A stretch of DNA of 40,116 nucleotides from Lachnospiraceae bacterium (GTDB lineage: Bacteria; Bacillota; Clostridia; Lachnospirales; Lachnospiraceae). Position 1 is the stretch's first letter. Each line of letters begins with the position of its first letter. The stretch covers positions 1 to 40,116 of the forward strand of contig JAFUAE010000040.1 in NCBI GenBank assembly GCA_017460845.1. The letters are read 5' to 3'. This document shows, piece by piece, positions 1 to 40,116 of the stretch. Below the pieces are notes generated by a model. The model was not told the origin of the DNA. It worked only from the letters and a program-made list of their open reading frames with translations, and ran no database searches. Made by a program: the position numbers and the translations under genes.

Positions 1-142
1 CCATATCGGAAAGAGCTGCCTCACCGAGGATGACCATCAGTTCCTTTGCATCCTTACCTCTGGAATATGCCGCAAAGAGCTGGTTCATGGTACTTGCGTG
101 GTCTGCACGTGTCTTGCCCTCGCCGACACCCTTATCCTTCAG
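1..142 (-). pseudogene. ntpB: C-terminal remainder of V-type ATPase subunit B, past an in-frame TGA
   Basis: Reading on from the TGA at 143-145 in the same frame gives about 47 uninterrupted codons to the window edge, beginning [12 protein letters not shown] and continuing with [13 protein letters not shown] and [10 protein letters not shown]. This is the normal continuation of V-ATPase subunit B after the LPSLSR motif, so the reading frame is intact and only one codon is wrong. There is no frameshift. The piece has no ribosome site of its own; an in-frame ATG lies inside it but would give only a fragment of the C-terminal helical domain. The real gene should end about 60 codons beyond the left edge. 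Confidence 0.85.
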
Positions 143-1192
143 TCAGGACAGGGACGGCAGTACATCGATCGGCGGCTGAATGCCTCTTCTGTAGAGATCA
201 CGTCCGAGCATAATCTGTCCTTCGGTAATATATCCGGTCAGATCCGGGATCGGGTGGGTCTTGTCATCTTCCGGCATGGTCAGGATCGGGATCATGGTAA
301 TGGAGCCCTTGCGGCCAAGCTGACGTCCTGCTCTTTCATACAGGCTGGCAAGGTCGGTATACATGTAGCCCGGATATCCGCGGCGTCCCGGAACCTCCTT
401 GCGGGCTGCGGAGATCTCACGAAGGGAGTCCGCATAGTTTGTAATATCCGTCAGAATGACCAGGACGTGCATATCCTTTTCAAATGCAAGATATTCTGCA
501 GCAGTCAGAGCCATTCGCGGAGTTGAAATTCTTTCTACCGCCGGGTCGTTTGCCAGGTTCAGGAACATAACCGCTCTGTCGATTGCACCGGTCTCACGGA
601 AGGAGTTCATGAAGAAGCTCGCTTCCTCGAAGGTGATACCCATTGCTGCGAATACAACGGCGAACTGCTCGTCCGTTCCGCGGACCTTTGCCTGACGCGC
701 GATCTGCGCTGCCAGATTGGCATGCGGAAGGCCGGAGCAGGAGAAGATCGGAAGCTTCTGGCCTCTGACCAGTGTATTCAGTCCGTCGATTGCGGAAACG
801 CCGGTCTGGATGAACTCGGACGGATACGCACGTGCTGCCGGGTTGATCGGCAGGCCGTTGATATCCATTCTTGCATCCGGAATGATCTCGGGACCGTCAT
901 CAATGGCTCTGCCCATGCCGTCGAACATACGGCCGAGCATATCCTCCGAAACGCCGAGCGTCAGGCTCTTTCCGAAAAATCTGACCTTGGAGGATTCCAG
1001 GTTAATACCTGTGGAAGCTTCGAAAAGCTGTACCAGGGCGTTGCCCTCGTCGATCTCAAGGACCTTGCAGCGGCGTTTTGTTCCGTCTGCAAGCTCGATC
1101 TCGCCAAGCTCGTCATATTTTACATTCTCAACGCCTTTGACCAGCATCAGAGGTCCCGTGACCTCCTGTATGGTTCTATACTCCTTAGGCAT
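143..1192 (-). CDS. ntpB: V-type ATPase subunit B, stopped at codon 350 by TGA
   Basis: Nucleotide-binding but non-catalytic subunit of the cytoplasmic V1 head; alternates with A in the A3B3 hexamer. The protein matches the family from residue 1 (KEYRTI, then GPLM) through the nucleotide-binding domain ([41 protein letters not shown]) to LPSLS at residue 349. Codon 350 is TGA, where the family has the arginine of LPSLSR, the arginine finger that reaches into the A-subunit active site. Full-length B is about 460 residues, so the product as written lacks the C-terminal domain. The ATG directly follows the ntpA stop, and an AGGAGG site sits inside the ntpA end. A real nonsense mutation, a base-call error or leaky readthrough are all possible. 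Confidence 0.9.
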
Positions 1193-2965
1193 TTAGAAAG
1201 CCTCCTTTCTTGCAACGGCATCCGCGCACTCTTTCTTCAGAGTTTCCACGATCTTTGCATATTCCTCTTCGATCTGGTCTTCAGCAACATATTTGAAACG
1301 TCCGATGGCCTCGCGGCACGGGATCGAAATCAGGTCATTGACCTTTGCTCCCTGTGCAAGCGCTCTGCCTGCCTCGTCATAGTAGTCCAGGATCAGGGTC
1401 ATCATGATATGCTGCTTCTTCTGTGAAGTATAGGTATCGACATCGTCGAATGCATTCTGATGCAGATAGTCCTCACGGATGGAGCGTGCTGCTTCCAGCT
1501 TCAGGCGGTCGGGTGCGGAAAGCGCATCCATACCGACCAGGTTAACGATTTCTTCCAGCTCCGACTCATCCTGCAGAAGTCCCATCATTCTGCCGCGCAG
1601 AGCTGACCAGTCTTCAGCGACTGTCTTGTCAAAATACGGCTCCACAGAGTCAAGATACAGACTGTATGAGGTCAGCCAGTTGATTGCCGGGAAATGTCTC
1701 TTATATGCAAGTCCCGCATCCAGTGACCAGAATACCTTGACGATACGAAGCGTTGCCTGTGTAACGGGCTCCGAAATATCGCCGCCTGCAGGAGAAACCG
1801 CACCGATAACCGAAAGTGCACCCTCGCGGCCCTCTGAGCCAAGACAGATAACACGTCCGGCACGCTCATAGAACTCAGCCAGACGGGAACCCAGGTATGC
1901 AGGATAACCTTCTTCACCCGGCATTTCCTCCAGACGTCCTGACATCTCTCGAAGAGCCTCTGCCCATCTGGAAGTCGAATCTGCCATCAGTGCAACGGAA
2001 TAACCCATATCACGGAAGTACTCCGCAATGGTGATGCCTGTGTAAATAGATGCTTCTCGTGCCGCAACCGGCATATCCGAAGTGTTTGCAATCAGGACGG
2101 TCCTCTCCATCAGGGACTTTCCGGTACGCGGATCCTTCAGCTCTGGGAACTCGTTCAGAACGTCGGTCATCTCATTTCCGCGCTCTCCGCAGCCGATATA
2201 AACCACGATTTCCGCATCAGCCCATTTAGCAAGCTGATGCTGTACAACTGTCTTACCTGAACCGAACGGTCCCGGAACAGCTGCAACACCGCCCTTAGCG
2301 ATCGGGAACATGGTATCGATGACACGCTGGCCGGAAATCAGCGGCATATCCGGGCTGAGCTTGGTCTTATAGGGTCTTCCCGTACGTACGGGCCATCTCT
2401 GCATCAGCTGGACCTTTTTATCGCCCTTTTCCGTTGCGATCACAGCGATATCTTCAGTCACTGTGAAATCGCCCTCTGCGATCTCCTTCACTTCTCCGTC
2501 CGCATCCTTCGGCACCATGATCTTGTGAAGAACAACATCCGTCTCCTGTACGGTTCCGATCACGTCGCCGTAAACGACCTTGTCGCCTGCCTTGACCGTC
2601 GGTACAAAATGCCATTTCTTCTCTCTGTCAAGGGATGGAACCGATACGCCTCTCTGAAGCAGATTGGATCCTGTCTGTTCTACGATTTTCTCAAGCGGTC
2701 TCTGAATACCGTCATAAATACTGCTGATGATGCCGGGGCCGAGTTCTACGGACATCGGAACGCCGGTGGATTCTACAGGCTCGCCCGGGCCGAGTCCGGA
2801 CGTTTCCTCATAGACCTGGATCGACGCTTCGTCCCCGTGGATCTCAATGATCTCTCCGGTCAGGTTTTTGTCGGATACACGGCACACGTCACGAATGCTG
2901 GCGTCGCGCATTCCTTTGGCAATAACCAGAGGTCCGGCTACTTTTTTGATAACACCTTTACTCAT
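1193..2965 (-). CDS. ntpA: V-type ATPase catalytic subunit A
   Basis: Catalytic subunit of V1; hydrolyses ATP to drive ion transport by Vo (or makes ATP in reverse). At 590 residues it is full length. Walker A GPFGSGKT lies at about residues 232-239 and the catalytic glutamate is in GCGERGNE (Glu261). The long non-homologous insert typical of A subunits (about residues 110-200) precedes the P-loop. The C-terminal helical part is complete. The start ATG has GGAAAGG upstream. It sits between subunit F and subunit B with short gaps, so it is translated from the operon mRNA. Nothing in this gene looks damaged, in contrast to ntpB next to it. Confidence 0.97.
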
Positions 2966-2991
2966 GTTTATACTTACCTTTCCATCAAAAA

Positions 2992-3312
2992 CTAGTCATT
3001 TCCGAAAATGATATCTGAGCCTACCGCGCGCTCCACCGACTTCTTTACGGCCTTCAGGCCCTTGCCGGTATTGCCGAAAACGCCCGGGATCTGAATGATT
3101 GCGGGAAGCCTTCTTTCCGAATAGTAATTGATCTCCCGCTCCAGTCTCTCCGCAAGCTCTTCGGTAATATAAATGACCGCATAATTGCCTTCCACGAGAG
3201 TCTTCAGCTTTTCAGCCGCTTCCTCCGTATCAGTAACCGGAAAAGGTTCAAGTCCGACGGCGCCGAAACCGTAAATGCTGTCACGGTCGCCGATCACTGC
3301 TATTTTATACAT
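2992..3312 (-). CDS. ntpG: V-type ATPase subunit F (central stalk)
   Basis: Small Rossmann-like subunit that binds subunit D in the rotating central stalk; called NtpG in Enterococcus hirae nomenclature and AtpF/subunit F elsewhere. At 106 residues it has family length. Recognisable pieces are the N-terminal [11 protein letters not shown] and FGAVGLEPF, a middle strand [11 protein letters not shown] and the proline-rich [10 protein letters not shown] chose the ATG of MYKIAV at 3312, which overlaps the last 8 bases of ntpC; a GTG at 3321 is in frame but too close to the AAAGGG ribosome site. The overlap suggests coupled translation with ntpC. Confidence 0.92.
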
Positions 3313-4285
3313 AAGTATCACGCACCCTTTCCCTTAACATTTCCGCCGGAAAACCGTTCTGCTTGCCGGCAAGAATGATCCTTACTGATTTGATCTCATT
3401 TTCTCTGGCTATGATATACGCTGCGATAGGCCCGGGTCCGAATGCCTCATAATGCATGGACTCCATCCTGTCCGTGATCAGGTTGTCACACCAGCGTTCA
3501 AATGCTGCAGGCGACTTCTTGAGTTCCTGTACTGCCCCGGCAAAATCCGTGCTTGCGAGAAATGCGCCGATTGCATCCTCTCCGCTCAAAGCAGCCGAGG
3601 TCAATCCGCCAACCGAAAGGATGCCGCTCTCTGCGAGCGCCATATTCAGAAAATCTCTGTCCTTTCCGGTCAGGCAGGCGCGGATCGCGATCTTGATGTC
3701 GGATGCGGCAGTCTTCAGCTCTGCGTATTCTCCGATAAAGCTGTCTCCTGTCTCCAATCCGGCTTCCCTGATTGCTTCCAGGCAGGCCTTGTCGACCATG
3801 ATGTCGCAAAGCTGTCCGTCACCGGTCCTCAGAAAGACCTCATGTGCCTTTTCGGCAATCTCTGACATGGATACCGGCAGCGTCTTGTAAGACCTGGTGC
3901 TGACAGCATTCCGGATCATCTCGGCCGGCAGTGTGCCGTTCTCCGCATAGATGCCCGGATAATCCGTATCCATCACAGATGCTTTCAGTGCAGCCTTGAG
4001 GTTGTTGAAATCATTCTGAAGCCTGAATACATTAAATACATTCAGATCCGGAACGATTTCATCCACGTAGTTCCAGAGCTTCTCCGTTTCCTGGCGGAAC
4101 ATCTCATCAAGATCATCCGAATCCTCGCTGCCCCAGCCCCTGTCTTTCAGGATCCTGACAGCATCCTCCGTGGTCTTTGCAGAAATGAGCTGTTCCATAA
4201 AAGCCCCGTCAAGAAGTTTTAATTCTGCATGTCTTAACCGCGCAACAGCATATGCATAGCTTTTATCTACATATGTATTTGTCAT
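3305..4285 (-). CDS. ntpC: V-type ATPase subunit C
   Basis: Subunit C (the d-type socket) links the membrane K ring to the central stalk. At 326 residues it matches the family, which is all-helical and built from three similar bundles. Visible family features are the N-terminal YAYAVARLRHAELKLLD and a C-terminal ENEIKSVRIILAGKQNG followed by [10 protein letters not shown]. It lies 15 bases after ntpE and overlaps the subunit F start by 8 bases, consistent with a single polycistronic message. Confidence 0.93.
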   Translation of the reverse strand: MTNTYVDKSYAYAVARLRHAELKLLDGAFMEQLISAKTTEDAVRILKDRGWGSEDSDDLDEMFRQETEKLWNYVDEIVPDLNVFNVFRLQNDFNNLKAALKASVMDTDYPGIYAENGTLPAEMIRNAVSTRSYKTLPVSMSEIAEKAHEVFLRTGDGQLCDIMVDKACLEAIREAGLETGDSFIGEYAELKTAASDIKIAIRACLTGKDRDFLNMALAESGILSVGGLTSAALSGEDAIGAFLASTDFAGAVQELKKSPAAFERWCDNLITDRMESMHYEAFGPGPIAAYIIARENEIKSVRIILAGKQNGFPAEMLRERVRDTYV

Positions 4286-4300
4286 GCTGACCTCCTGCTG

Positions 4301-4894
4301 TTACGCAAACAATATTGATTTCACCTTATCCAGCAAATCGTCGATATTCTGATCGAAAAGCGCGTCAAATGTACAGTTTTCCTCAACTCCGCCGAAATCA
4401 AGCACGAAACCGTCCCTGATATCCGCCGCATCCTTGGATATCGTCAGATTGGAGCCCGCTGCCTTTGCAGCAGCTGTCAGCGCATCCAGGGTCTCCCCGG
4501 AGAATCTTCCAAGATCCTTTTTGCCGAGCTTCAGTACTGCGTCCTGAGCCGGTACATGCTTTTGGAACAGCTTTACGAAGAAGTCCGTATACTCCTGATC
4601 AGACAGTCCGGCAAGCTTTTCCTTTGCCAGTCTGATCGTATCATTCATTGCTTCCTGTTTGCCGGAAAGAAGAATCTGTTTGGATTTCAGTTCTGCCGAT
4701 GCCTTGCTTCTTTCCGCAATGCCGCGTGCCTGGGCTTCGGCTTTTTTCTCGATTCTGCCGCATTCTTCCATGGTCTTCTTCCGGTTATCCGCAAGGATCG
4801 CTTCAGCCCTTGCCTTTGCTTCCTTCAGGATCGCATCCGCCTTACCTGAAGACTCCTGGGAAATGCGGCCGACTATTTTTTCAAGTCCGCTCAT
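4301..4894 (-). CDS. ntpE: V-type ATPase subunit E (peripheral stalk)
   Basis: Peripheral-stalk subunit that holds the A3B3 head against rotation by pairing with the G/H subunit. At 197 residues it has an N-terminal half that is a long charged helix rich in Ala, Lys and Glu (residues about 15-100, for example KKAEAQARGIAERSKASAE), expected to form the right-handed coiled coil of the stalk. The C-terminal globular half ends VEENCTFDALFDQNID. The ATG has AAAGGA upstream. It is one of the less conserved subunits, and the identification rests on composition, length and operon position together. Confidence 0.9.
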   Translation of the reverse strand: MSGLEKIVGRISQESSGKADAILKEAKARAEAILADNRKKTMEECGRIEKKAEAQARGIAERSKASAELKSKQILLSGKQEAMNDTIRLAKEKLAGLSDQEYTDFFVKLFQKHVPAQDAVLKLGKKDLGRFSGETLDALTAAAKAAGSNLTISKDAADIRDGFVLDFGGVEENCTFDALFDQNIDDLLDKVKSILFA

Positions 4895-4949
4895 TGATCT
4901 GTCCTTTCCTATTGTTCTTTTTCATCATCCTGATCCTGCTGCAGCATTA

Positions 4950-7444
<2,495 letters not shown>

Positions 7445-22132: not shown

Positions 22133-23287
22133 CTGAACGCGCAATATTTCAAGCAAAATCACAGACGGCTCCTGCAGGATCTGCTCTTTACGATCCTGAT
22201 CCTTTATCTGGCCTGGGCCGTCAGCAGCCTGCTGCTGCCCAATACCGGCGTGGAGAATAACTCCGCGCTGATTTTTGTGCTTGCGGTCGTCATCATTTCC
22301 TGCATGACAGAAGGCTATTTCTTCGGTATTACGGCATCACTGGTCAGCACCATCTGCATCAACTGGTTTTTCATGTATCCATATGGAAACTTTAACCTGT
22401 CCCTGACAGGCTACCCGGTTGCGATCATCAGCACCCTCACCTGCGCACTGGTTGTCTGTACGCTGACCTCCCGCACCAAGCTGCACGCCAAAATGGCCGA
22501 AGACCGCGAACGGAAAACCACGGAGCTGTACCGCAAGAATGCGATTCTCGAAAAAGAAAAAACCACAATGGAAATCAGCCGCGCAAAAGCGGATGTGCGC
22601 AGCAATATTCTGATGTCCGTGTCGCACGATCTGCGCACGCCCCTGACCGCAATTGCAGGCGCGGCCTCCGTCGTCCTTGAGCAGGATCCGAATGAACATC
22701 TGGCGGATAACTTTGAGCTGGTCCGGGGTATTAAGGACCAGGCCGAATGGATGTCGATCATGGTTGAAAACATTATCTCCGTCGCAAAGCTCGGAGGAAC
22801 GGATACCGAGCTTCAGCTGCGTCCTGAAATCCCGGATGAAATCATTGAAAGCTGCGTGATCAATATCCGCAGGCTTTTCCCGGACGCAGATATCGAGCTG
22901 CATCTTTCCGATGAGATCGTGCTGGTTTATGCTGAACCCATCCTGATCCGCCAGGTCCTCCAGAATCTTCTGGAAAATGCGATCAGGCATTCCGAAAGCA
23001 AGCTTCCTTATGAGGTCAGTACCGAAATCACCGAAGACGGTCTGCGCTTTGCCGTGCGGGACCATGGAATCGGTATCCCCGAAGACATCCGGGCGCTGAT
23101 CAACCGGAATGATTCCGTCTTTATGGATGATAATTCAGAAGGGGAACACCGACGCGGGATCGGGATTTCCGCATGTCAGAGCATACTGAAGGCTCACGGC
23201 AGCAAACTGATTGCTGCAGAAATGCCGGATGGCGGCACAGAATTCAGCTTCATTTTAAAAACCGCAGAACAGGAGTATTCAATATGA
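22133..23287 (+). CDS. KdpD-like sensor histidine kinase without the N-terminal KdpD domain; CTG start
   Basis: Membrane histidine kinase, 384 residues if begun at CTG. Four membrane helices of the DUF4118 type span about residues 15-115, then a HisKA domain with SVSHDLRTPLTA (phospho-acceptor His165) and an ATPase domain with QNLLENAIRHS and DHGIGIP. The cytoplasmic KdpD and UspA domains of true KdpD are absent. The reading frame has no ATG, GTG or TTG until codon 40, which would delete the first helix; CTG at 22133 has GGAGG seven bases upstream. A TATAAT at 22100-22105 may be the -10. It overlaps the regulator gene by ATGA. No kdpFABC is present. Confidence 0.85.
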   Translation: MNAQYFKQNHRRLLQDLLFTILILYLAWAVSSLLLPNTGVENNSALIFVLAVVIISCMTEGYFFGITASLVSTICINWFFMYPYGNFNLSLTGYPVAIISTLTCALVVCTLTSRTKLHAKMAEDRERKTTELYRKNAILEKEKTTMEISRAKADVRSNILMSVSHDLRTPLTAIAGAASVVLEQDPNEHLADNFELVRGIKDQAEWMSIMVENIISVAKLGGTDTELQLRPEIPDEIIESCVINIRRLFPDADIELHLSDEIVLVYAEPILIRQVLQNLLENAIRHSESKLPYEVSTEITEDGLRFAVRDHGIGIPEDIRALINRNDSVFMDDNSEGEHRRGIGISACQSILKAHGSKLIAAEMPDGGTEFSFILKTAEQEYSI

Positions 23288-23994
23288 GTATCCACTCCAC
23301 TATCTTAATTGTTGAAGACGATCCCCTGATCGGAAAGTTCATGTCCCGGGCCGTAGAGGACGCAGGTTTCCGCTGCATGATCGCCGAAACTGCAAAAGAC
23401 TGCAGAATCCTTTTCTTTTCTGAAATGCCGGATCTTGTCCTGCTGGACCTCGGTCTGCCGGATGATGACGGTCTCAACCTGCTGAAAGAAATGAAAGATG
23501 TCCGGGAAAGTATTCCGGTTATCATTGTCTCTGCAAGAGAGCGTGAAAACGAAAAGGTGAAAGCCCTGGATATGGGTGCGGACGACTATGTCACAAAGCC
23601 CTTCGGCATTTTCGAACTGATGGCCAGGATCCGTACGGCGCTCCGGCACAGCAACAGGGCCGCTTCCCAGACTCTTTCCGATGAGGATGCCGTATTCCAG
23701 CATAAAGGGCTGACTATGGATATTTCAAAGCATCAGGTCAGACTAAACGGAGAAGAGATCCATTTGACGGGAAAAGAATTCCGGATCCTGGAGCTGCTCT
23801 TCCGGCACAAGGGAAAGGTGCTGACCTATTCCTGGCTCATGCAGCAGATCTGGGGCGATTTTATACCGGCGGATAATCAGATCCTCCGTGTTAATATGGC
23901 CAATATCCGGCGTAAATTAAAGGAAAACATTGAAGAGCCGGTTTATATCAAAACAGAGCTGGGCGTAGGCTACAGAATGCCGGAGGAGGAATGA
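23284..23994 (+). CDS. KdpE-like response regulator (OmpR family)
   Basis: The 236-residue partner of the preceding kinase. The receiver domain has ED (11-12), phospho-acceptor Asp55 in LVLLDLGLPD and Lys105 in VTKPF. The C-terminal winged helix has the OmpR-type HLTGKEFRILELLF and NQILRVNMANIRRKL, ending GVGYRMPEEE. The start is the ATG at 23284, overlapping the kinase stop, with CAGGAG upstream. Likely targets are itself or the gene following at 24136; TTCTTAAC and TTCTAAAC at 24020 and 24041, 21 bases apart, could be half-sites, but this is speculation. Confidence 0.92.
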   Translation: MSIHSTILIVEDDPLIGKFMSRAVEDAGFRCMIAETAKDCRILFFSEMPDLVLLDLGLPDDDGLNLLKEMKDVRESIPVIIVSARERENEKVKALDMGADDYVTKPFGIFELMARIRTALRHSNRAASQTLSDEDAVFQHKGLTMDISKHQVRLNGEEIHLTGKEFRILELLFRHKGKVLTYSWLMQQIWGDFIPADNQILRVNMANIRRKLKENIEEPVYIKTELGVGYRMPEEE

Positions 23995-27040: not shown

Positions 27041-27772
27041 ATGCAGAAAAGTATGAACGAGCTCGCCGTCCTCGCAAAAACGGACGAGCGGGTCCGGGAA
27101 AACTTTATAAGGGAACACGAACAGACAATTCTGAGAATGGCTTATCACGCTGCAGGACATTTTATCAGCCGGAGCGATGACGAATGGTCTGTTTCCCTGT
27201 ATGCATTTTCAAAGGCAATTGATTCTTATGAACCCGAAAAAGGCGATTTCGCCGGTTATGCGCAGCTGCTGATCCGGAGAGATCTGACAGACGAATACCG
27301 CCGGAAGGCCAGATTCAGTCCGGAAATTTCCACGGCCGCACATGTACTGGAAGGAAATGCGGAGCCGGAGGAAGACCCGGATCACGTCCTGAAAGCAGTT
27401 GCCGCAGAAAGCATGCGTGCCTCCGAAAACGGCACCGCTCTTCAGGATGAGATCCTGGAAGTCAGCACTGAGCTTCAGGCATTTGGATTTTCTTTTTTTG
27501 ACCTGACCTTTGGCTCTCCCAAACAGGACCGGACCCGGGATGCCTGCGCTTTTGTGATCCGCTGGATCCTGTCGCAGCCGCTGCTGGTCCGGAAAATTCT
27601 AAGCACTCACCAGCTTCCGGGAGCTGAGATCCGCAGAGCGACACATGCCTCGGAAAAGCTTCTGGAGCATTACCGCAAATATCTGATTGCGGCTGTCCTG
27701 ATCCTCAGCGGGAATTATCCGCACCTGCAGGAATACCTGAAATACATCAGAAGGGAGGAGGTTCGCATATGA
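27041..27772 (+). CDS. sigI: RNA polymerase sigma factor SigI
   Basis: A 243-residue alternative sigma factor of the sigma-I family, used in Firmicutes for heat, envelope or extracellular-polysaccharide signals. Region 2 is visible as WSVSLYAFSKAIDSYEPEKGDFAGYAQLLIRRDLTDEYRR; a C-terminal helix-turn-helix region (LPGAEIRRATHASEKLLEHYRKYL) would read the -35. The middle about 80 residues are acidic and weakly conserved. The ATG at 27041 lacks a clear ribosome site; ATG 27053 is an alternative. Its stop overlaps the rsgI ATG (ATGA), the usual sigI-rsgI arrangement. Confidence 0.85.
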   Translation: MQKSMNELAVLAKTDERVRENFIREHEQTILRMAYHAAGHFISRSDDEWSVSLYAFSKAIDSYEPEKGDFAGYAQLLIRRDLTDEYRRKARFSPEISTAAHVLEGNAEPEEDPDHVLKAVAAESMRASENGTALQDEILEVSTELQAFGFSFFDLTFGSPKQDRTRDACAFVIRWILSQPLLVRKILSTHQLPGAEIRRATHASEKLLEHYRKYLIAAVLILSGNYPHLQEYLKYIRREEVRI

Positions 27773-29259
27773 AAGCTGTTGTAACTGAAATACGCGGCAC
27801 TGAAGCTGCGGTCCTTACAGAAGACGGACAATTTCTGGCAGTCCCCGATCTGGATTATCGGATCGGCATGGAACTGGACCTCCCCGATTCTGTGACTTTA
27901 TATGATGACAAGGATGAATTGTCCGAAGATGAGCTCTTTGATGATTTCCCTGAAGAAAATGAAATCACCGAACCTGTTCCGGCTGATCCTGTGACAGAAA
28001 CCGGCTCCCGCCGGTCCCCGAAGTCCGTAAGCGGTCTCTCTGTGAGACGCTGGCGGAAAGTCCTTTCCACTGCTGCAGCGGCTGCCGTGCTGATCGTAGG
28101 CGCCGGCGGTGCTTACACCTATGCGCAGCCCTACGGCGTGGTCAGTCTGGACGCAGCCCCTTCTATTGAATATACGATCAACCGCTTCGACCGGGTCCTG
28201 TCCGCAGAGCTTGTCAGCGGGAATGCGGAATCATTTTCCCCTGATTTTGACCTGAATTCCCTGAAGCACACAAGGATCGACCGTGCCCTTGAGCTCACGC
28301 TGGATCATATCAGTCTCTCTGATCCGGAAGAAAGCAGCTCAGATGAGTCAGCACCTGTGGTCATCCTGGGAACAAACACAAGGGACGGCCGGCATTCCTC
28401 GGATCTTTCAGACAGACTGAAGCTGAAAGTACAGGATTCTGTCGGAGATATCGACGTCTATGCAGCCTCGATTTCAGACGAGGAAGCAGGAAGGGCTCAT
28501 GAATTCGGCACGACCCCGGGCAGACTGCATTTTGTGCGGACAATGCTGAATGGTGAGGAGAATGCGGATAATGCAGTTAACGCTGAAACTGCGGAGCTCG
28601 AATTAAAGAAATGGGTCAAGGAGCCGATCCCGGAAATCATGTCTGAACACAAACGCCGCAGGCATCCCGATGCCCAGGCTGCACCTTTTGGAAATACTGA
28701 ATCCGGCCAACTGCTTCCAGAGCCCGGTAAAGAATCGGGTGCCGGCCTTCCCGCCGCATCAGATGCAGGTCCTGCAGGGCAGGCGCTGAAGGAGGCTGTC
28801 CCGCAGGAAACGATCCCACAGGAACAGGATACGCCGGCCGGGAACATTCCTGCCCAGCGTCCGGAAACCGGCTTCCCATCCGGTGATAATTCCACACCGC
28901 AGCATGAAATGCCGGAGGATGCAAAGGCGCCAGCTCCCTTGACGCAGCAACAGGAGGAGGCTCCCGCTATGCAGCAGCCTGAAGGGCAATTTGGGCATGA
29001 AATCAGCGCAGATGAGAACCGCGGGCAGGAAGCGGCACCCCAGCCGGGTGATGCGGATTCTACGGAAATGTTTCCTCTGGATGGAAACACAGACCGGCAG
29101 GAAAACATGCAGTTCCCTGGAGAAATGTCCCGCCCCGATATGTCTCATGACGGAGGCGGTATGCCCGGACACTCCGGCTCCCTTCACGAAGGAGCAGGCC
29201 CCGGTATGGGAGGAAACGGATTCCAGGATTCCCACGGCCCGGGCGGTCCCATGCACTGA
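27769..29259 (+). CDS. rsgI: Membrane anti-sigma factor RsgI with a disordered His/Met/Gly-rich tail
   Basis: A 496-residue transmembrane anti-sigma factor. Residues 1-45 form the small cytosolic SigI-binding domain (KAVVTEIRGTEAAVLTEDGQF); an acidic linker and one membrane helix follow at about 98-118. The extracellular juxtamembrane domain has the family GVVSLDAAPSIEYTINRFDRVL, but where most RsgI have Asn-Pro this one has Ala130-Pro131. Beyond about residue 300 the tail is low-complexity (Pro/Gln/Glu), ending with a Gly/Met/His-rich stretch; no carbohydrate-binding module is visible. GGAGGAGG precedes the ATG. Confidence 0.85.
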   Translation: MKAVVTEIRGTEAAVLTEDGQFLAVPDLDYRIGMELDLPDSVTLYDDKDELSEDELFDDFPEENEITEPVPADPVTETGSRRSPKSVSGLSVRRWRKVLSTAAAAAVLIVGAGGAYTYAQPYGVVSLDAAPSIEYTINRFDRVLSAELVSGNAESFSPDFDLNSLKHTRIDRALELTLDHISLSDPEESSSDESAPVVILGTNTRDGRHSSDLSDRLKLKVQDSVGDIDVYAASISDEEAGRAHEFGTTPGRLHFVRTMLNGEENADNAVNAETAELELKKWVKEPIPEIMSEHKRRRHPDAQAAPFGNTESGQLLPEPGKESGAGLPAASDAGPAGQALKEAVPQETIPQEQDTPAGNIPAQRPETGFPSGDNSTPQHEMPEDAKAPAPLTQQQEEAPAMQQPEGQFGHEISADENRGQEAAPQPGDADSTEMFPLDGNTDRQENMQFPGEMSRPDMSHDGGGMPGHSGSLHEGAGPGMGGNGFQDSHGPGGPMH

Positions 29260-33730: not shown

Positions 33731-34603
33731 TTATTCGTTACCGTATAAAATCCTTGCAAGCTCGGAATTCTTATCAAGAATAATCGTTTTTGAACCGCCC
33801 TGCAGCGATTTCTCTACTGCATCCAGACTGCGGAGATAATTGTAGAAGTCCGCCTTTTCCTGCGTATTATAGGCCTCCTGCAGGATCCGCATGTATTCCG
33901 CTTCTCCCTCCGCCTCAATGATGGCCGCCTGTTTGTTGGCATTTGCCTCAAGGATCGCAACACTTTTATCCGCAGCATTCCGGATCTTCTGCGCCTCGGC
34001 ATCGCCCTCTGCCTTATAGGATGCGGCAATGTTCTGCCGTTCTGAGATCATTCGCTCGTAAACCGACTCCTTATTGTCGTCCGGCAGATCAAGGGATTTG
34101 ATTTCAGACTTAATGACCTCGATCCCGTAGTTCAGGATATCCGAATTGGCTTCCTCCGTGATCAACTGTGTGAGACGCTCGCCTCTCGACTCGATAACTT
34201 CATCCTGCGTCATGGAAGAAATCACATTCTTGGTTGCATTATAGACTGCCGCTTCGATCCTTTCCTCGGCACGAAGCTCCACGGCGTCAAGCGTCCTGAT
34301 GTAACTGGCCGGCTCCACCACACGCCACAGCACATAGTTATCTGCGATCATGCTCTTTTTATCCTTGGTGATCACGTCGGACGAAGGAATATCGTACAGG
34401 ATCGTCGCTGCGGTGATCGGCTGGATCGACTGAATAAACGGAAGCTTAAAGTAAAGTCCCGGCGCGCTCTTAATATCTACGATCCTTCCAAACTGCCGGA
34501 CAGCTGCATATTCTTTCGGATGGACAACATACAGCGACGAAAATCCCAGCCCCGCAAGAAGGATAATCAGGACGATCAGGAGAATGCTTTTCATTTTACT
34601 CAT
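33731..34603 (-). CDS. hflC: HflC, SPFH-domain membrane protein
   Basis: The 290-residue partner of HflK: one N-terminal membrane helix (ILLIVLIILLAGLGFSSLYVV) and a large SPFH domain outside the membrane, with the long Ala/Glu-rich helix (AEAQKIRNAADKSVAILEANANKQAAIIEAEGEAEY region) that lets HflKC form a cage around FtsH and tune membrane proteolysis. The ATG of MSKMKS overlaps the hflK stop; the site GGAGGAAC lies in the end of hflK. A longer in-frame start would add 14 residues of hflK sequence. Confidence 0.93.
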   Translation of the reverse strand: MSKMKSILLIVLIILLAGLGFSSLYVVHPKEYAAVRQFGRIVDIKSAPGLYFKLPFIQSIQPITAATILYDIPSSDVITKDKKSMIADNYVLWRVVEPASYIRTLDAVELRAEERIEAAVYNATKNVISSMTQDEVIESRGERLTQLITEEANSDILNYGIEVIKSEIKSLDLPDDNKESVYERMISERQNIAASYKAEGDAEAQKIRNAADKSVAILEANANKQAAIIEAEGEAEYMRILQEAYNTQEKADFYNYLRSLDAVEKSLQGGSKTIILDKNSELARILYGNE

Positions 34604-35669
34604 TTGTCTGTTCCTCCTTTTCCGGTGCGCCGACAAAGCTCTCAAGCGGAAGCATGGTCTGTGTGCCGCCGTCTGTTATGATCACCTTAGTCCCCGGAAG
34701 GACATTTTCCATGGTCTCATAAAAAAGACGCTGCTTCGTGATCAGAGGACTGTTCCGGTACTGGTCATACATCGCATTAAAACGGGCAACCTGTCCTTCC
34801 GCTTCGGCAATGCGGGCCGCCTTTTTGGCCTCTGCACTCTGGGTGATCCTGTCCGCGCGCGCCTCTGCTGCGGGAACCTGCTCATTGCGGTACTTATTGG
34901 CGTTGTTGATGGCTGTCTCCTTGCCCTGCTTGGCCGTTTCCACGGACTTGAAGGCCTGGATGATTTCCGCCGTGGGCGGCTCTGCATCCTGAACCGTAAT
35001 ATTTACCACAGAAAGGCCGATCTGGCGGCGCTCGAGCTCTTCCGTCATTTTCGCCTTGACCTCTGCCTGGATCTGGCTTTTACCGATCGTGATAGCGTCA
35101 TCCACATCGAAGTCGATGACGGTAGACCTGATCGCAGCCAAGGCAATATTCTTCAGGATCTGCTCCGGCTCTCTGGAATTATACAGATAGGCAACCGGAT
35201 CATTGACCTTATATTCCATATAGAAGTCGATATCGATAAAGTTAAAGTCGCGTGTGATCATCACGCCGTCCGTATTGGCCGCAAAATTCTGGCCGTCATC
35301 GCTCACGTTATAACCGATGCCCGTGCCATGCGTCGTGATATCCACAAAATGTACCTGCTGTATCAGAGGCAGCTTGAAATGCAGGCCTGCCGTATCTGTC
35401 CGGATCACGTTTCCGAACATAGTAACGACCGCATTTTCCTGCTCATGCACATTGTAATAGCTGCCGGTCACGACTACGCCGGCAACTGCGATGATAATCA
35501 CAGGGATCACATATTTTCTGATCGGCGGCAGTTTAATAGAAGGCTTTTTTCTGTGAACTGTGCCGTCCTGGTCGATCACTTCACCGTTTTTTCTCTGCTG
35601 CTGCAGATACGGCAGCAGATATTTCTGTACCAGATAAACGATCACAAGTAAGAGGATAATTAATTCCAT
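34596..35669 (-). CDS. hflK: HflK, SPFH-domain membrane protein
   Basis: A 357-residue member of the HflK/HflC pair. The N-terminus has a first hydrophobic stretch (LIILLLVIVYLVQ), a basic linker with Gln-rich region, then the membrane helix YVIPVIIIAVAGVVVTG, followed by the SPFH domain (ENAVVTMFGNVIRTDTAGLHFKLP) and helical region (YRNEQVPAAEARADRI). E. coli HflK has a Gly/Pro-rich cytosolic N-terminus, whereas here an extra hydrophobic segment occupies that place. GGAGAAG precedes the ATG. It is first of the unit, with a palindrome-rich region upstream. Confidence 0.92.
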   Translation of the reverse strand: MELIILLLVIVYLVQKYLLPYLQQQRKNGEVIDQDGTVHRKKPSIKLPPIRKYVIPVIIIAVAGVVVTGSYYNVHEQENAVVTMFGNVIRTDTAGLHFKLPLIQQVHFVDITTHGTGIGYNVSDDGQNFAANTDGVMITRDFNFIDIDFYMEYKVNDPVAYLYNSREPEQILKNIALAAIRSTVIDFDVDDAITIGKSQIQAEVKAKMTEELERRQIGLSVVNITVQDAEPPTAEIIQAFKSVETAKQGKETAINNANKYRNEQVPAAEARADRITQSAEAKKAARIAEAEGQVARFNAMYDQYRNSPLITKQRLFYETMENVLPGTKVIITDGGTQTMLPLESFVGAPEKEEQTNE

Positions 35670-38299: not shown

Positions 38300-40116
38300 T
38301 CATTCCTCTCTCTGTAAGGAAACCCCGAAGGAGATCCTCCGCGGGGTGGTGATGTTATCAAATTGTATCGTATAAGCCCGTTTATCCGCATCTGCAGAAA
38401 GAACCGTGCCCGTCCCCAGGTATGGATGCCGGATCCTGGCGCCTTCGGGAAATGCATCCGGACAGTTGTTCCCGGGAAGATATCTGTCCTGCCTTTGGAT
38501 GTATTCCCTTGTATCCCGGATCAGTCCTTCTGAGGGCTTGCGGACATATTCCAGATTCCCGCTGCCGATATCGAGAATAAATCTTGAAGGATACCGCGGT
38601 GTCCCGTCAAAATTGCGCCCTTCCGCGGCAGACAGATACAGACGCTTTTCCGCCCTGGTCAGTGCGACAAAGGCAAGCCGTCTCTCCTCCTCCATGCCTG
38701 GGAGGTCTCTGGTCTTTCTGGATGGGAAGACACCTTCATTCATGCCGCATAAAAAGACATACGGAAACTCCAGTCCCTTTGCGGCATGCACGGTCATCAG
38801 CTTTATCCTGTCCGAGGCATCCTCCGTATCACTGTTGGTAAACAGCGCCGTATGCGCCAGAAAATGCTGCAGCATATGCTCTTCGCCGCAGCTGGTCTCA
38901 TACTCATAGACAGCCTGCTTGAGTTCCGCCAGATTATCAAGTCTTTCCTGGCTTCCTTCCGTCCTCAGCATTTCCTCATATCCGCTGTCGTTCAGGATCC
39001 CGGAAAGTACCTCTGAAATATTCTGCCCTTCATACTCGGCGGCATAGCGGTCGATCAGCCGCACGAAGCGGTCCGCTTTTGTTCCTTTAAAAATGTCGTC
39101 CTCCAGAGAACTTTTCAGCGCCTGATAAAGCGTACAGCCGTGCTCCCCGGCATACTGCTCCAGAAAAGCCATGCGCCGAAGCCCGAGATTGCGCTTTGGT
39201 GTATTGGCGATCCTGCGGAAGGACAGATCATCCTGCGAAACGATCATCCGGAGATAACTGAGTGCGTCCTTGATCTCCGCCCTTCCGAAAAAGGGCACGC
39301 CGCTGTAAATATGATAAGGCAGCTTTTCCTTCAGCAGCTGCTCCTCCACGGTCCTGGAGACGTAATGGGCACGATAGAGTATCGTGATATCATTGTAGGG
39401 CGTTCCCTGTTCATGAAGCTTCCCGATCTCCGATACGATCCATGCCGCTTCCTCTTCCGTGTTGTCTGCGGAATCAAAGAGTACCGGGAGACCGCCGGTG
39501 ACCACCGGTACCAGTTCTTTTTCGATACGGTGCTGATTCTTTGCGATCAGAGCATTTGCAGCCTTCAGGATCGGCGGCGCGGAACGATAGTTTTTGAGCA
39601 TCATAACCGTCCTGACATCCGGGAAATGTCTGTCGAATTCCAGCAGATAGCGGACATCGGCGCCCCTCCAGGTATAGATTGTCTGATCCGGATCACCGAC
39701 AATAAATAAATTCCGGTGCAGACCGCAGAGATGTTCCATCAGTTCATACTGCAGCCCGTCGATGTCCTGAAACTCATCGATCATAATATATTCGAGGCGG
39801 TCCTGCCATTTCAGCCTGATATCCTCATGATTGCGGAAGATATAAAGACAGAACTTGATCAGGTCATTATAGTCGAGGCCAAAGCATTTCTTTTCCTGAT
39901 ACAGATATCCGTAAAAAATGATGTCATCCGTTCCGGTAGCATTCATATATTTTTCATGCAGAACATCCAGGGACATATCGATCATGTCCAGATAGTACTC
40001 CGGCTTTTTAAAGAGCTTCTGGATCTCGATCATATTTCTGGCATCGGAAAATGTCCTGTCCCGAAGCGTCAAGCCCCGCTCTTCGTAAATGATGCGAAGC
40101 ATGGAATCGATGTCAC
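38300..40116 (-). CDS. UvrD/PcrA-type DNA helicase, 5' end cut by the window edge
   Basis: About 605 residues of a superfamily 1A helicase; the frame stays open to the right edge, so the Walker A part lies outside. Motif II is IDEFQD, motif III GDPDQTIYTWRGAD, motif IV LKNYRS, motif V TVHAAKGLEFPYVFLCG and motif VI VALTRAEKRLYLS. Near the C-terminus (about 545-595) is a Tudor-like domain (GARIRHPYLGTGTVL) as in PcrA, which binds RNA polymerase. Probably acts in repair or conflict resolution. Whether it is the main PcrA or a paralogue cannot be decided without the missing N-terminus. The stop overlaps the Nudix start region. Confidence 0.92.
   Translation of the reverse strand, partial: DIDSMLRIIYEERGLTLRDRTFSDARNMIEIQKLFKKPEYYLDMIDMSLDVLHEKYMNATGTDDIIFYGYLYQEKKCFGLDYNDLIKFCLYIFRNHEDIRLKWQDRLEYIMIDEFQDIDGLQYELMEHLCGLHRNLFIVGDPDQTIYTWRGADVRYLLEFDRHFPDVRTVMMLKNYRSAPPILKAANALIAKNQHRIEKELVPVVTGGLPVLFDSADNTEEEAAWIVSEIGKLHEQGTPYNDITILYRAHYVSRTVEEQLLKEKLPYHIYSGVPFFGRAEIKDALSYLRMIVSQDDLSFRRIANTPKRNLGLRRMAFLEQYAGEHGCTLYQALKSSLEDDIFKGTKADRFVRLIDRYAAEYEGQNISEVLSGILNDSGYEEMLRTEGSQERLDNLAELKQAVYEYETSCGEEHMLQHFLAHTALFTNSDTEDASDRIKLMTVHAAKGLEFPYVFLCGMNEGVFPSRKTRDLPGMEEERRLAFVALTRAEKRLYLSAAEGRNFDGTPRYPSRFILDIGSGNLEYVRKPSEGLIRDTREYIQRQDRYLPGNNCPDAFPEGARIRHPYLGTGTVLSADADKRAYTIQFDNITTPRRISFGVSLQREE

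Follow-up and report, generated by a model that had tools for sequence, protein, structure and literature searches.

An in-frame TGA interrupts ntpB, the gene for subunit B of a V-ATPase, at the codon for the catalytic arginine finger. It lies at 143..145 on the minus strand of the window, by which we mean the whole stretch of DNA analysed here (40,116 bases, the entire contig G000:C159). On balance we think it probable that this TGA reflects an erroneous base, or one present in a minority of reads, next to a contig end, and we infer a base error at this position. This reading is favoured because of the position beside the contig edge, the intact genes of sister genomes and the lack of any other sign of decay, the alternative being a mutation too young to have left such signs.

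An in-frame TGA at codon 350 of ntpB

The ntpB frame begins at position 1192 on the minus strand and is read downwards. Codons 1-349, all of them sense codons, occupy 146..1192, and codon 350 is the TGA formed by bases 145-143. A further 47 codons (351-397, at 1..142) are open to the contig end. Sequence and translation agree with the first-pass annotation, which had reported an in-frame TGA at this codon of subunit B; the UGA-C context that it named is likewise confirmed, as the next base 3′ is C. The two domains expected of a V-type ATPase subunit B (NtpB/AtpB) are present up to the stop and score above their Pfam cut-offs, namely the ATP-synt_ab nucleotide-binding domain (PF00006, 260.2 bits) and the N-terminal barrel (PF02874, 32.6 bits). 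The arginine finger that is expected at the LPSLSR motif of such proteins is absent from the window assembly, where its codon is TGA.

Across these 349 residues the product is 99.7% identical to subunit B of the closest sister genome (G010), in which ntpB is intact and encodes 460 amino acids. The G010 protein aligns gaplessly over residues 1-454 with chain 3vr2_D of Enterococcus hirae NtpB (E 9e-223), query residue 1 pairing with chain residue 8 and codon 350 with chain residue 357. As the chain numbering is offset by 7, the aligned position is NtpB residue 350. In an excerpt of PMC5095293, Arg350 of Eh-B is termed the 'Arg-finger'. The alignment and this excerpt thus both agree with the earlier proposal that codon 350 corresponds to the finger residue Arg350 of E. 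hirae NtpB.

Codon 350 encodes arginine in the relatives examined

When ntpB was searched for in 60 relatives, 58 gave some match (59 of 61 with the genome under study included). Among 24 genomes of the same genus, 18 match all 349 residues at 85-100% identity. The remaining genomes comprise one whose match falls in two pieces (G020), three with only a 41% identical relative and two that have no match. From 29 of these 58 relatives one locus per genome was retrieved (L005-L033), at 52-100% identity; codon 350 is Arg in every one of these 29 loci from whole genomes. It is also Arg in 80 of 80 GTDB loci, which are the best 80 of at least 593 matching relatives, and which include one (L073) that has CGT. 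The two sets overlap (L045, for example, coincides with the G014 locus), and the 109 loci are therefore partly shared. A stop at codon 350 was found in 0/29 and 0/80 of these loci.

In G010 and G011 the codon is CGA, one transition away from TGA. Within the first 397 ntpB codons of G010 (L035 5840-7222, minus strand), CGA is used at the Arg-finger codon only. In one distant relative, L030 (G060), the match is interrupted by a TAA at another position. At the DNA level, eight relatives are 76-84% identical to ntpB of the window.

The V-ATPase operon and rotary ATPase content

The genes around ntpB follow the order ntpI-K-E-C-F-A-B(-D). Pfam recognizes seven genes, and the six that lie upstream of ntpB run in the same direction on the minus strand. 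They encode subunits I (5426..7444, PF01496), K, the c-ring protein (4950..5423, PF00137), E (4301..4894, PF01991), C (3305..4285, PF01992), F (2992..3321, PF01990) and A (1193..2965). The last of these, ntpA, is intact as judged by Pfam and by the ORFs of two sisters, which match residues 1-590 of 590 without gaps or stops. In G010, ntpD directly follows ntpB. No ntpD was found in the bin, which is 87.95% complete, and a search of the bin for the last ~63 codons of ntpB matched only the contig's own codons. The claim that the rest of the operon looks intact consequently holds for ntpI, K, E, C, F and A, on the evidence of Pfam and sister ORFs, and does not hold for ntpD and the 3′ end of ntpB, which fall outside the contig and could not be located in the bin. 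Over 143-7444 (minus strand), two sisters share 91-99.7% identity with the window in subunits B, A, F and K, but only 70-82% in subunits E, C and I.

An intact second V-ATPase would make this copy of ntpB dispensable, as the first-pass annotation had pointed out. A search of the genome (88% complete) with PF00006 found no second rotary ATPase. It returned only the present subunit B, its A partner and one weak match, an ABC transporter ATPase with an oligopeptide-transporter C-terminal region, which was rejected as a candidate. The same search of six sisters gave two patterns. G010, G007, G013 and G022 each have the A/B pair and a weaker match of 102-108 bits, which is probably Rho. G011 and G023 have an additional strong alpha/beta-like pair, which its length suggests is probably F-type; rotary ATPase content thus varies within the genus. 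In members of other genera, second copies are ~52-57% identical to subunit B of the window.

The TGA is the only stop in the gene frames examined

In a reverse test, 61 sister ORFs of at least 100 amino acids, from stretches of G010 and G007, were matched back to the window. The ntpB TGA at 143 is the sole stop in 14 gene frames that total 4,582 codons. Another 15 stops fall outside these frames, two of them just upstream of two gene starts and 13 antisense to genes or otherwise outside them. As the only stop in 4,582 codons, the ntpB TGA is more than chance.

Other genes of the contig were recorded in passing. At 27041-29259 (plus strand) a sigma factor gene (Sigma70_r2) is followed by an RsgI-like anti-sigma gene (RsgI_M, with RsgI_N just below cut-off), and by their domains the two look like a SigI-RsgI pair. 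A short KdpD-like sensor kinase (DUF4118, HisKA, HATPase_c) lies at 22250-23994 (plus strand), where it is overlapped by the start, as listed, of a response regulator ORF. Two adjacent Band_7/SPFH genes are located at 33731-35669 (minus strand), and their listed ORFs overlap by 50 bases.

ntpB is conserved on both sides of the stop

Between the window and G010, 395 of 396 ntpB residues agree. The 396 sense codons carry 182.5 synonymous and 5.5 nonsynonymous differences by the Nei-Gojobori method, and dS to G010 is ~1.5, which is near saturation (1.36-1.48 to three other sisters). The one amino acid that differs from G010, residue 283, is in the window the residue also found in two other sisters, and among the five ntpB sequences the stop is the only residue unique to the window. 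The 47 codons past the stop show 18 synonymous and 0 nonsynonymous differences from G010, with nonsynonymous counts of 1, 4.5 and 5 against the other three sisters. Their divergence from the sisters resembles that of the rest of ntpB, and there is no other disturbance in them.

This pattern of substitution indicates that purifying selection acted until recently both before and after the stop. Loss of function over an appreciable part of the branch should have left ntpB of the window with many residues of its own. If the stop is real, a rough estimate, which takes branch rates to be equal and uses an approximate dS, puts its age at less than ~1% of the branch.

The stop lies where a fragmented assembly ends

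The genome consists of 198 contigs and is 87.95% complete and 3.18% contaminated; such a fragmented draft assembly is probably a metagenome bin. As the window is a complete contig, the TGA lies ~145 bases from a contig end, and the share of the contig that near either end is 0.7%, a figure computed after the site had been seen. The assembly ended just past the stop codon, within ntpB. The rest of ntpB and ntpD are missing from the bin although ntpD adjoins ntpB in G010, and hence this is a place where the assembly broke. At the other end of the contig, a UvrD-like helicase gene (38300-40114, minus strand) is cut off, its frame being open to base 40,114 with no stop.

Searches for a second reading of the site gave none. 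No second copy of the window's first 400 bases exists in the bin, whose 32 further matches to them span 15-32 bases, and there is no duplicate or overlapping contig in the bin that covers the TGA. A search of viral contigs for a same-species copy, using a pattern in which the codon was left open, returned 0 matches, in a search that may omit very near records. The undisturbed flank, its ordinary divergence and the single copy of the first 400 bases together give no sign of a chimeric end.

Origin of the TGA

Under the preferred reading, the consensus would be wrong at one base, or would show a base that a minority of reads carry, within the last ~145 bases of a contig in a fragmented draft assembly. 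The TGA would then likely be absent from the genome of the population as a whole, and the organism's ntpB would likely encode Arg at codon 350 within a normal subunit B of ~460 residues. Several observations count against an error: the 47 codons that flank the TGA are otherwise undisturbed and diverge from the sisters much as the rest of ntpB does, the single copy of the first 400 bases gives no hint of a chimeric end, and the frame at the other end of the contig, that of UvrD, is open without a stop. Sequencing or assembly error was one of the options listed in the first-pass annotation, and it emerges as the best supported of them, by indirect evidence. The runner-up, which we regard as distinctly less probable though not negligible, is a real nonsense mutation of very recent date that changed a single base of an Arg codon, either in the strain sampled or in part of its population. 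The TGA is read cleanly between normal flanks, the CGA of G010 and G011 is a single transition away, and nonsense mutations of this kind do arise. Such a mutation, at the same modest probability, would leave a 349-residue subunit B that lacks the Arg-finger and the C-terminal part, and with it a dead V-ATPase. However, the stop is the only window-unique residue among five sequences while dS to the four sisters is ~1.4-1.5. Moreover, no second rotary ATPase was found in the bin, and G010 and G007, the nearest sisters, likewise have a single A/B pair beside a PF00006 match of ~102 bits that is probably Rho, which argues that loss should be costly. For a real mutation, finally, the location of the site beside a contig end would be a coincidence. 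It is very improbable that the stop is both real and fixed, in which case the cell would either be without the only rotary ATPase found or obtain some complete subunit B through UGA readthrough, the finger position then being filled by a residue that is not Arg.

Also very improbable is the idea that UGA is read through or recoded at this site, as Arg, Trp or selenocysteine, so that a full-length enzyme is made. The frame does continue past the TGA with conserved sequence, and UGA followed by C is a leaky context. Against this, none of the 26 tRNA matches in the genome (88% complete) has a UCA anticodon, in a tRNA set that is itself incomplete, as tRNA-Trp is also absent from those 26 matches. 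The five matches to tRNA-Sec (RF01852) are all below cut-off and all fall on tRNAs assigned by ARAGORN to Ser (three), Leu or Gly. Release factor RF2 is intact (521 bits against a cut-off of 370), and TGA terminates 21 of the 38 other ORFs listed for the window, some of them doubtful, including gltX and ntpK. The RNA 3′ of the codon has no unusual structure (z -0.28; 63 of 200 shuffles fold equally well). Nor is a stop at this position shared by relatives, as it occurs in 0 of the 109 loci examined (overlapping sets, with the GTDB loci being the best 80 of at least 593). A change of genetic code was rejected on the grounds of the intact RF2, the frequent use of TGA as a stop among the window ORFs and the failure to find a suitable tRNA. 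Selenocysteine insertion was also rejected, there being no tRNA-Sec over cut-off and no structure after the codon. Readthrough as a working mechanism, another option of the first pass, is left unsupported by the intact RF2, the lack of a UCA or Sec tRNA among the matches and the lack of structure.

A wrong or minority base thus remains our preferred explanation, and the case carries a caution. A stop that strikes a catalytic codon looks notable, yet the location beside the end of a draft contig, together with the intact sister genes and the lack of other decay, points to an error or to a young mutation that has left no trace. If the stop were true, the genome would have naturally lost the one rotary ATPase found in it, a case worth a look.

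Comparison with known systems

The reading as a wrong or minority base resembles the local consensus and assembly errors described for metagenome-assembled genomes. In the part of PMC7111523 drawn on here, gaps and local assembly errors are said to limit such genomes, and assemblers are presumed to halt at uncertain points; one case is given in which assembly was ended by two sequence variants. The likeness is that of a single disturbed position near the halt of a fragmented assembly. With regard to the protein, the nearest known system is E. hirae NtpB, as represented by 3vr2 and related structures. It is the same protein, Arg350 has the same number, and the LPSLSRLKDKG motif is held in common with G010. 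The window copy departs from it in two ways, a TGA at codon 350 and truncation after codon 397, where the contig stops.
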